Positions 13,586 to 43,513 of a DNA stretch of 64,000 nucleotides are shown piece by piece; the stretch's first letter is position 1; every line of letters starts with the position of its first letter. Below the pieces are notes generated by a model, which ran no database searches, had not been told where the DNA came from, and worked only from the letters and a program-made list of their open reading frames with translations. This DNA is from Acidobacteriota bacterium (GTDB taxonomy: Bacteria > Acidobacteriota > Terriglobia > Bryobacterales > Bryobacteraceae): the NCBI GenBank assembly GCA_025352795.1, contig JANXSF010000086.1, positions 62,001-126,000 of the forward strand, written 5' to 3'. The position numbers were made by a program, and so were the translations under genes.

Positions 13586-14086
13586 CTACCCAGCAACAGC
13601 GCCGACACCTTGAAATTCCCGCTGACTGAGTACCGTACTAATGTCCAGCAACATCTTCACTCCATCTTTCATTTTTGCCATCCCCAAGATGTATGGAATG
13701 GTGTCGCCAATTCCAAAATCGGGCGTATTTTCAAGATCCTGAGCTGTAATGTTGAGTACTTCGGAAACCCCGTCCACCACCACACCAATCAAAATCGCAC
13801 CATTGAAACCATCTACTTGAACGACAATAATGCAAGTTCTTTTTGTGTAGGCAATCTGTTCCAGACCAAACTTGACCCGCAAATCGATCACCGGGATCAC
13901 TTTGCCACGAAGATTGATCACACCTTTGAGATAACCTGGCGTATTCGGAACTGCCGTAATATCCTGTACGCCGATGATTTCCCGTACCTTAAGAACCTGC
14001 ACTCCAAATTCTTCGTTGCCTAAATTGAAAGCCAAATATTTTCCGGCACGACCGTCCACAGCAATTGCAATATTCCCTTGTTCCAT
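13586..14086 (-). CDS. cheW: CheW chemotaxis coupling protein
   Basis: A 166-residue adaptor linking receptors to CheA. Characteristic lines are [50 protein letters not shown] and, near 80-120, [16 protein letters not shown]. It is the first gene of the operon. The ribosome site GAGGAG lies about 10 nt before ATG 14086. A sigma-28-like promoter is 65-90 nt upstream (see separate entry). Short N- and C-terminal tails ([20 protein letters not shown]) are unremarkable. Confidence 0.96.
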
Positions 14087-14150
14087 TACTTGGCATTTCT
14101 CCTCGGTACAATTCTTGAATTCTCACCGGTTCATCTGCGGACTAAGTACA

Positions 14151-14177
14151 TATCGGTTGGTGTTGTAAAGTTTTTAA
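14151..14177 (-). promoter_or_regulatory. Sigma-28/sigma-D (FliA-type) promoter for the che operon
   Basis: On the minus strand, TAAA (14174-14177), a 15 bp spacer, and ACCGATAT (14151-14158) match the known FliA/SigD consensus TAAA-N15-(G)CCGATAT closely. The predicted transcript start is near 14144, giving a leader of about 58 nt to the cheW ATG. The same pair of elements with a 16 bp spacer occurs upstream of the orphan gene at 42803-43420, at nearly the same distance from its start codon. The match is visual; no transcript data were available. Confidence 0.72.
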
Positions 14178-42802: not shown

Positions 42803-43420
42803 TTACATGGTAACTACGTCGAAATGGAACCTTTCGGGAGGTAAAGAAGCTGCTTCCGATGGTCCCATTGCACTCCAAGCCTGGTAAGCCGATTGCGATA
42901 TTTTCTCATTCAAGTAGAAAAGAAACTGGTCTGTGCAGCAGGAAAATGGCGGCAATTGCCGGAACGATAGTCGCAATCCTACAGCAGTTTCCAGGGCCAC
43001 GCCGCTGGTGGAAATGGCTTTGTCTTCCAGTAATCGTACAAAACTGGAACGTCCGGCATGGGGCCACAGGTCAGGCCGCAACAATGGACGCAATTGGGGA
43101 TTGGTCTCAAAGGTGGTCTCGCATTGCCTGATCCATTCCAGAACGTCGTCCCCCCATTGCCACTTGTATCTGAGGTTCAGGTAATGTTCGGAAAGTTGAA
43201 TGGCAAGGTCCATTCTATGACGATCCATTTCTAATTCCATCGCCGCATCGGGAGGCAAGGCAGGAAACACCAGAAGGTCGTTTTCCACCATCTTTTCGGC
43301 CATTCCCACCACGCGATCCATACGCTTCATGGACGTGTGTGCATGAACCAGCAAAGGCGGAAGTTCCAGCATCCGTTCCCCACTGATCTCAACAAATGTT
43401 CTGGTCCCCAGGATATCCAT
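42803..43420 (-). CDS. Orphan protein preceded by a sigma-28-like promoter
   Basis: Not recognised. I choose ATG 43420 because GGAGG lies 5 nt before it; a TTG four codons earlier has no better site. The 205-residue protein is largely helical with acidic patches (about 50-130: PDAAMELEMDRHRMDLAIQ) and a second half containing GRSSFVRLLEDKAISTSGVALETAVG and CCTDQFLFYLNEKI. No signal peptide, membrane helix or known domain is visible. Its promoter matches the che promoter in sequence and in distance to the start codon, which links it tentatively to motility or chemotaxis. Confidence 0.6.
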   Translation of the reverse strand: MDILGTRTFVEISGERMLELPPLLVHAHTSMKRMDRVVGMAEKMVENDLLVFPALPPDAAMELEMDRHRMDLAIQLSEHYLNLRYKWQWGDDVLEWIRQCETTFETNPQLRPLLRPDLWPHAGRSSFVRLLEDKAISTSGVALETAVGLRLSFRQLPPFSCCTDQFLFYLNEKISQSAYQAWSAMGPSEAASLPPERFHFDVVTM

Positions 43421-43485
43421 AGCAACCTCCAATTCTTAAATCGAACCTCTGCCTGACAACACGGTCGTCCCTATTTATGGACTAC

Positions 43486-43513
43486 ATATCGGTCAATTGC
43501 AATAGAGTTTGTA
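43486..43513 (-). promoter_or_regulatory. Sigma-28/sigma-D-like promoter upstream of the orphan gene
   Basis: On the minus strand, TACA (43510-43513), a 16 bp spacer, and ACCGATAT (43486-43493), the same -10 as at 14151-14158. The leader from the predicted transcript start to ATG 43420 would be about 59 nt, virtually the same as for cheW (about 58). The -35 extends as TACAAACT versus TAAAAACT at cheW. Two independent promoters with matched -10, -35 and leader length strengthen the assignment. Confidence 0.62.

Follow-up and report, generated by a model that had tools for sequence, protein, structure and literature searches.

The Locus and the Encoded Protein

A 205-codon open reading frame is found on the minus strand of the window (the whole stretch of 64,000 nucleotides that was analysed), with its ATG at 43420 and a stop codon that ends at 42803. 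The gene was taken from the list of open reading frames (42803..43420, minus strand), and its product had been described in the initial annotation as a 205-residue protein without a known domain. This description was borne out by the Pfam, NCBIfam and PHROG models, which gave zero matches at E values up to 1; in none of these three collections was a chemotaxis or flagellar domain recognised for the protein. A match to H-kinase_dim (E = 0.0014), found by domain search in one of the 35 members of the family alignment, was taken as chance. Inspection of the N-terminus by eye gave no obvious signal peptide, and on this ground the protein is probably cytoplasmic. AlphaFold2 was run on two family sequences and gave no usable model (mean pLDDT 39.4). 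Similarly, the profile search of solved structures returned two matches up to an E value of 10 (E = 0.1 and 3.5), both of them designed proteins by name, and no solved relative.

Downstream, 53 nt past the gene and on the same strand, lies a gene for a DUF507 protein (Pfam PF04368; 42108..42749, minus strand), which is possibly co-transcribed with it. The DUF507 gene was rejected as an operon partner because the nearest relative (hereafter the sister, genome G001, whose protein is 75% identical) has another downstream gene. The divergent neighbour encodes a sulfatase (Pfam PF00884; 43577..45052, plus strand), and the sister has a similar divergent gene that appears, by eye, to be split across two open reading frames. 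In the sister this sulfatase-like gene (L031:1366-2970, minus strand) is spread over frames in different phases on a draft contig, where a frameshift and a sequencing error are not distinguished. Among the 20 neighbour clusters printed, no family-wide conserved neighbourhood was observed, and no che or flagellar gene was recognised by eye. One genus does show recurrent neighbours, a lyase-like gene upstream and a GFO/IDH-type gene downstream (names assigned by eye).

Promoter-Like Elements in the Window

The initial annotation had placed a promoter-like element upstream of the gene (42803-43420) and had described its parts as mirroring those at cheW. The element was verified, with a -35-like box TACAAACT at 43513-43506 (43506..43513, minus strand), 12 nt upstream of a sigma28-type -10-like box ACCGATAT at 43493-43486 (43486..43493, minus strand), which has analogous GYCGAT or NCCGATA boxes in orthologues. 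The cheW gene (13586..14086, minus strand; Pfam PF01584, E = 3.8e-36) lies 29 kb away and heads a che cluster with genes for MCP, CheA, CheR, CheD, CheY, CheX and CheB. It is preceded by the -35 box TAAAAACT (14169..14176, minus strand) and, after N11, by the -10 box ACCGATAT (14150..14157, minus strand). The likeness holds for the boxes, as the -10 octamers are identical and TACAAACT agrees with the cheW octamer at 7/8 positions, compared with 4/8 (counted by hand) for the E. coli octamer TAAAGTTT, a value below the 5/8 screen used against TAAAGTTT at N12. It does not extend to the spacer, which is 12 nt at the 205-codon gene (TACAAACT-N12-ACCGATAT) and 11 nt at cheW (TAAAAACT-N11-ACCGATAT), so that the two promoters are similar and not copies in spacing. 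The leader length given earlier, about 59 nt and close to that of cheW, was reproduced: if transcription is presumed to start about 7 nt downstream of the -10 box, the predicted leader (43421..43479, minus strand) was counted at about 59 nt, against about 57 nt at cheW.

A screen for such elements, chosen after the site had been seen, was applied to the 60 mechanically called genes of the window; it called for NCCGATAW and a -35 octamer that matches TAAAAACT, TAAAGTTT or TCAGACTT at 6/8 positions or more, separated by N10-12, at most 150 bp upstream. Only two of the 60 genes passed, the 205-codon gene and cheW. Dinucleotide-shuffled upstream regions gave a mean of 0.035 passes, with one pass reached in 7 of 200 shuffles and two in 0 of 200. 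The heptamer CCGATAT itself occurs 17 times in the window, 3.5-fold over the dinucleotide expectation of 4.86; since 14 of the 17 copies fall inside mechanically called open reading frames, the heptamer alone means little. Genome-wide, 830 copies were found against 321 for the reversed pattern, a poor control because it does not preserve dinucleotides. The longer pattern TAAA-N14-16-NCCGATAW was not enriched genome-wide (17 matches, with 22 for the reversed control). Four of the 17 window copies of CCGATAT belong to two copies of the palindrome CCGATATCGG.

Elements Upstream of Orthologues

The 200 nt upstream of 105 orthologues were compared, 45 of them belonging to the first sample and 60 added by manual selection. 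These regions span 54 genera (genus numbers typed by hand), within which congeneric orthologues are not independent. The control set comprised 377 other genes with mechanically called starts, from loci mostly of the same taxonomic family. The box GYCGAT was found at -52..-12 in 57 of the 105 orthologues (mean 3.0 and maximum 7 in shuffled regions) and 30 of the 54 genera, compared with 11 of the 377 control genes. When the octamer TAAAGTTT was fitted upstream of GYCGAT, leaving out the window copy and the loci whose ECF -10 is formed by GTCGAT, the best fit was obtained at N12 (mean 3.87/8), with a shoulder at N11 (3.04) and values of 1.25-2.69 at other offsets; the octamer reached at least 5/8 in 21 of 55 regions at N12 and in 12 at N11. 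An early reading, in which GYCGAT in the orthologues spoke against sigma28, was withdrawn in view of this peak. The combined pattern, TAAAGTTT (at least 5/8)-N11/12-YCGAT, was present in 32 of the 105 orthologues and 15 of the 377 controls; among these 15 are one copy of the gene itself (in L071), which had escaped the filter, and the cheW of the window.

In these elements both octamers of sigma28 (FliA/WhiG) promoters are recognisable, for example at L212, with TGAAGTTT-N11-GCCGATAA (7/8 and 8/8, by eye). The E. coli sigma28 consensus is given as TAAAGTTT-N11-GCCGATAA in the excerpt of PMC2859248, from which the orthologue elements differ in their usual N12 spacer and in a box that often reads GTCGAT. 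The N12 spacer of the window element agrees with that of the orthologues. The window box lies at -73 and the orthologue boxes near -26, so that homology between them is uncertain. The sister has no element at the place occupied in the window and carries a degenerate GCCGAAAAG near -25. Retention of the upstream CCGATAT in orthologues had been proposed as a check in the initial annotation; the exact element was found not to be conserved and is missing from this nearest relative. The taxonomic family f3 showed no box in 14 upstream regions, 11 of them from genus g50, a contrast that is confounded by relatedness. Two f3 genomes (G056 and G061) have FlhA and sigma28-family factors and still no box, so the loss of the sigma factor is not a full explanation of its absence.

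A second element, of ECF type, was found in the same regions. Pairs of AAC and CGTC at gaps of 16, 17 and 18 nt occurred in 11, 44 and 18 of the 105 orthologues, respectively; no other gap between 5 and 45 nt was seen in more than 5. The first -35 base was G in 69 of these 73 pairs. The resulting pattern, GNAAC-N16-18-CGTC, was thus present in 69 of the 105 orthologues (shuffle mean 0.92, maximum 4, 100 shuffles) against 5 of the 377 controls, and in 43 of the 54 genera it was carried by at least half of the members. These elements resemble Streptomyces sigmaE promoters in their GNAAC -35, CGTC -10 and gap of 16-18 nt after AAC; in the excerpt of PMC6767563, sigmaE targets are shown with AAC and (C)GTC at a similar distance. 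The broad ECF pattern AACTTGN{13,14}CGTC stayed below its reversed control in six of six genomes (closest in G018, 27 against 30), which gave no sign of a large regulon.

Upstream of the window copy no ECF promoter is recognisable, whether sought with the strict pattern or with a relaxed -10. The sister has GAAAC-N17-CGTACAAT, which is ECF-like and falls outside the strict-pattern count. GYCGAT and the ECF element occur together in 43 of the 105 orthologues, and 22 have neither. With the ECF -10 relaxed to CGTC, CATC, CGTA, TGTC or CGTG, 28 of 51 non-coincident boxes lie 35-45 nt below the ECF element (range 20-84). At 10 loci (L010, L011, L025, L088, L240, L244 and four more) the ECF -10 reads CGTCGATA or similar and coincides with the GYCGAT box.

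Sigma28 Targets and Sigma28-Family Factors in Related Genomes

In the own genome, TCAGACTT-N10-NCCGATAAG precedes the two long flagellin genes. Boxes of the type NCCGATAA/T were found upstream of flagellin in 10 of the 14 loci with a located start (14 of 31 loci), and NCCGATAW within 110 nt in 8 of 23 cheW upstream regions, that of the window included. The cheW gene of the sister has TAAA-N15-GACGATAT. In the TAAAGTTT test, the flagellin and cheW boxes peaked at N10-N11, although from 20 sequences, of which three reach 5/8 at N11 and three at N10. Set against the N11 consensus of E. coli, as excerpted in PMC2859248, the own flagellins have N10 and cheW has N11. Taken together, CCGATA is probably a real sigma28 signal at the known targets in these bacteria. 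The two flagellins (L089 and L090, G000:C121) lie near each other, have unusually long frames (803 and 808 codons) and share TCAGACTTCCC as well as NCCGATAAG upstream.

Two sigma factors of the own genome (G000) exceed the TIGR02479 (FliA/WhiG) cut-off, one on C26 beside FlhA and the other on C62. The latter is a second sigma28 (FliA/WhiG-family) factor, encoded at G000:C62:50623-51282 (L282 and L093). In a tree with 18 lower-scoring sigma28-family matches fetched by hand, 17 fell outside the flagellar clade on a long branch (support 1.0), and one (G021 C186) fell within it. No neighbour was shared by more than six of the 17 non-flagellar sigma28 genes, antisense shadow frames aside.

Distribution of the Gene

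Orthologues scoring at least 179 bits were found in 46 of the 81 genomes searched, the own genome included, and matches at an E value of 1e-20 in 146 of 220 sampled genomes of the taxonomic family. A phylum-wide profile search matched 3 of 297 sampled genomes, all from the same taxonomic family. Within the sampled genomes, the gene family is confined to one order. FlhA was used as a marker of the flagellum in the 81 genomes: 29 have both FlhA and the gene, 17 the gene only, 20 FlhA only and 15 neither. The gene is present in 29 of 49 FlhA-positive and 17 of 32 FlhA-negative genomes (p = 0.65), so that no phyletic link with the flagellum was detected by this marker. Among the 17 gene-only genomes, 11 belong to genus g50 and have neither FlhA nor a FliA/WhiG match at an E value of 1e-40, and the box is absent there; others are incomplete drafts or carry flagellin, as G023 does. 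The survival of the gene in relatives without flagella indicates that it is probably not itself a motility part.

Proposed Regulation and Alternatives

The explanation that we favour, with modest confidence, is that the gene is co-controlled by an ECF sigma factor and a sigma28-family factor and encodes an uncharacterised, probably cytoplasmic protein. Alternative sigma factors would probably drive the gene as a separate transcription unit, presumably transcribed alone. Many species have a tandem arrangement of two promoter-like elements, with the ECF type upstream and the sigma28 type below. From these elements and their excess over the controls, we infer that they act as promoters and which sigma factor would read each. 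The upstream promoter (GNAAC-N16-18-CGTC) should respond to an ECF sigma factor, and hence to an envelope or other stress signal, and the sigma28-type promoter (TAAAGTTT-like, N12, GYCGATAA) would most often follow 35-45 nt further down. The window copy carries only the sigma28-type element, set further upstream at -73. On these grounds a sigma28-family factor plausibly takes part in the control, and the window promoter, read as a lineage-specific form of the family-wide sigma28-type input, is probably real. The protein may be an accessory of a stress response or of the transition to motility instead of belonging to the flagellum or the chemotaxis pathway. The assignment of the gene to the motility or chemotaxis regulon, made in the initial annotation, is therefore retained in part: the sigma28-type element recurs in the family (57 of 105), but the presence of the gene is independent of FlhA (p = 0.65) and an ECF promoter precedes 69 of the 105 orthologues. 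The comparison across 105 genomes has turned a guess from one site into a testable architecture of regulation, in which an orphan family has conserved ECF-type and sigma28-type elements and a second conserved sigma28 paralogue is also present.

The most serious alternative, doubtful but with an appreciable chance of being right, is that the window element is a chance match or the decayed remnant of an ancestral ECF promoter, with real transcription from another promoter. An alternative TTGCAA-N17-CATAAA, found by eye, overlaps the same stretch, and the sister has GAAAC-N17-CGTACAAT instead of the element. The position at -73 is not the usual place in the orthologues, one such promoter arose by chance in 7 of the 200 shuffles, and TAAA-N14-16-NCCGATAW is not enriched across the genome. 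A chance origin is harder to reconcile with the N12 spacer, which is the same as in the sigma28-type elements of the orthologues, and with a -35 octamer 7/8 identical to that of cheW.

An unlikely reading takes GYCGAT as half of an inverted repeat, CGRC-N6/7-GYCG, that lies immediately before the ribosome-binding site and would work as an RNA hairpin in the leader, with GYCGAT as its 3' arm, or as a palindromic operator. The pattern CGNC-N4-9-GNCG with a paired middle base was found in 28 of the 105 regions (shuffle mean 4.2, maximum 10, 200 shuffles). Over all matches the middle bases were G-C in 16, A-T in 11, C-G in 2, and T-A, A-C and G-T in 1 each, with 11 other unpaired, and Fisher's test on the A/G by T/C table gave p = 4e-6. 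The window has GACGACCGTGTTGTC, and its leader contains a weak inverted repeat, GACGAC-cgt-GTTGTC (43455..43469, minus strand), which resembles the CGRC-N6/7-GYCG of a minority of orthologues. When anchored on the right arm, however, the left arm was recovered in only 18 of 62 cases (mean 8.8 and maximum 16 in 2000 permutations), the repeat is shared by related genomes, and no Rfam match was obtained at E values up to 1 in 20 loci. The hairpin lost its place as the primary reading to the stronger -35-like signal at N12; as the weaker pattern it is kept as a rival account of part of the GYCGAT signal.

Control by the second, non-flagellar sigma28 paralogue (the C62 type of the own genome), which would read TAAAGTTT-N12-GYCGATAA, is similarly improbable. 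It would fit the contrast between N12 at the orthologues and N10-N11 at flagellin and cheW, a contrast drawn from few sequences (20). Genomes G007 and G065 count against it, as only the second sigma28 type was found there among matches at an E value of 1e-40 and the box is absent. If it were true, together with the tandem ECF promoter, an envelope-stress input would be tied to a WhiG-like programme through a family without a characterised relative.

The full claim of the initial annotation, that the gene supplies a hitherto undescribed functional component of the flagellar or chemotaxis apparatus, is very unlikely: a sigma28-type box is held in common with flagellin and cheW, yet the gene occurs independently of FlhA (29 of 49 and 17 of 32, p = 0.65), persists in the 11 genomes that lack both FlhA and a FliA/WhiG match at an E value of 1e-40, and in the 20 printed clusters had no neighbour that looked, by eye, like a che or flagellar gene. 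A promoter held in common does not by itself qualify a gene as a motility component.

A Paralogous Family

A distant homologue of the gene was noted in the same order, a paralogous family marked by LPPLILHPF (L065:3878-4498 and L066:3875-4495). Its alignment with the main family by hhalign reached a probability of 97.5 (E = 5e-12, 169 columns), with only two sequences on that side. The two families differ at about 24% identity, and weak matches of this kind are also found in genomes without the main gene.
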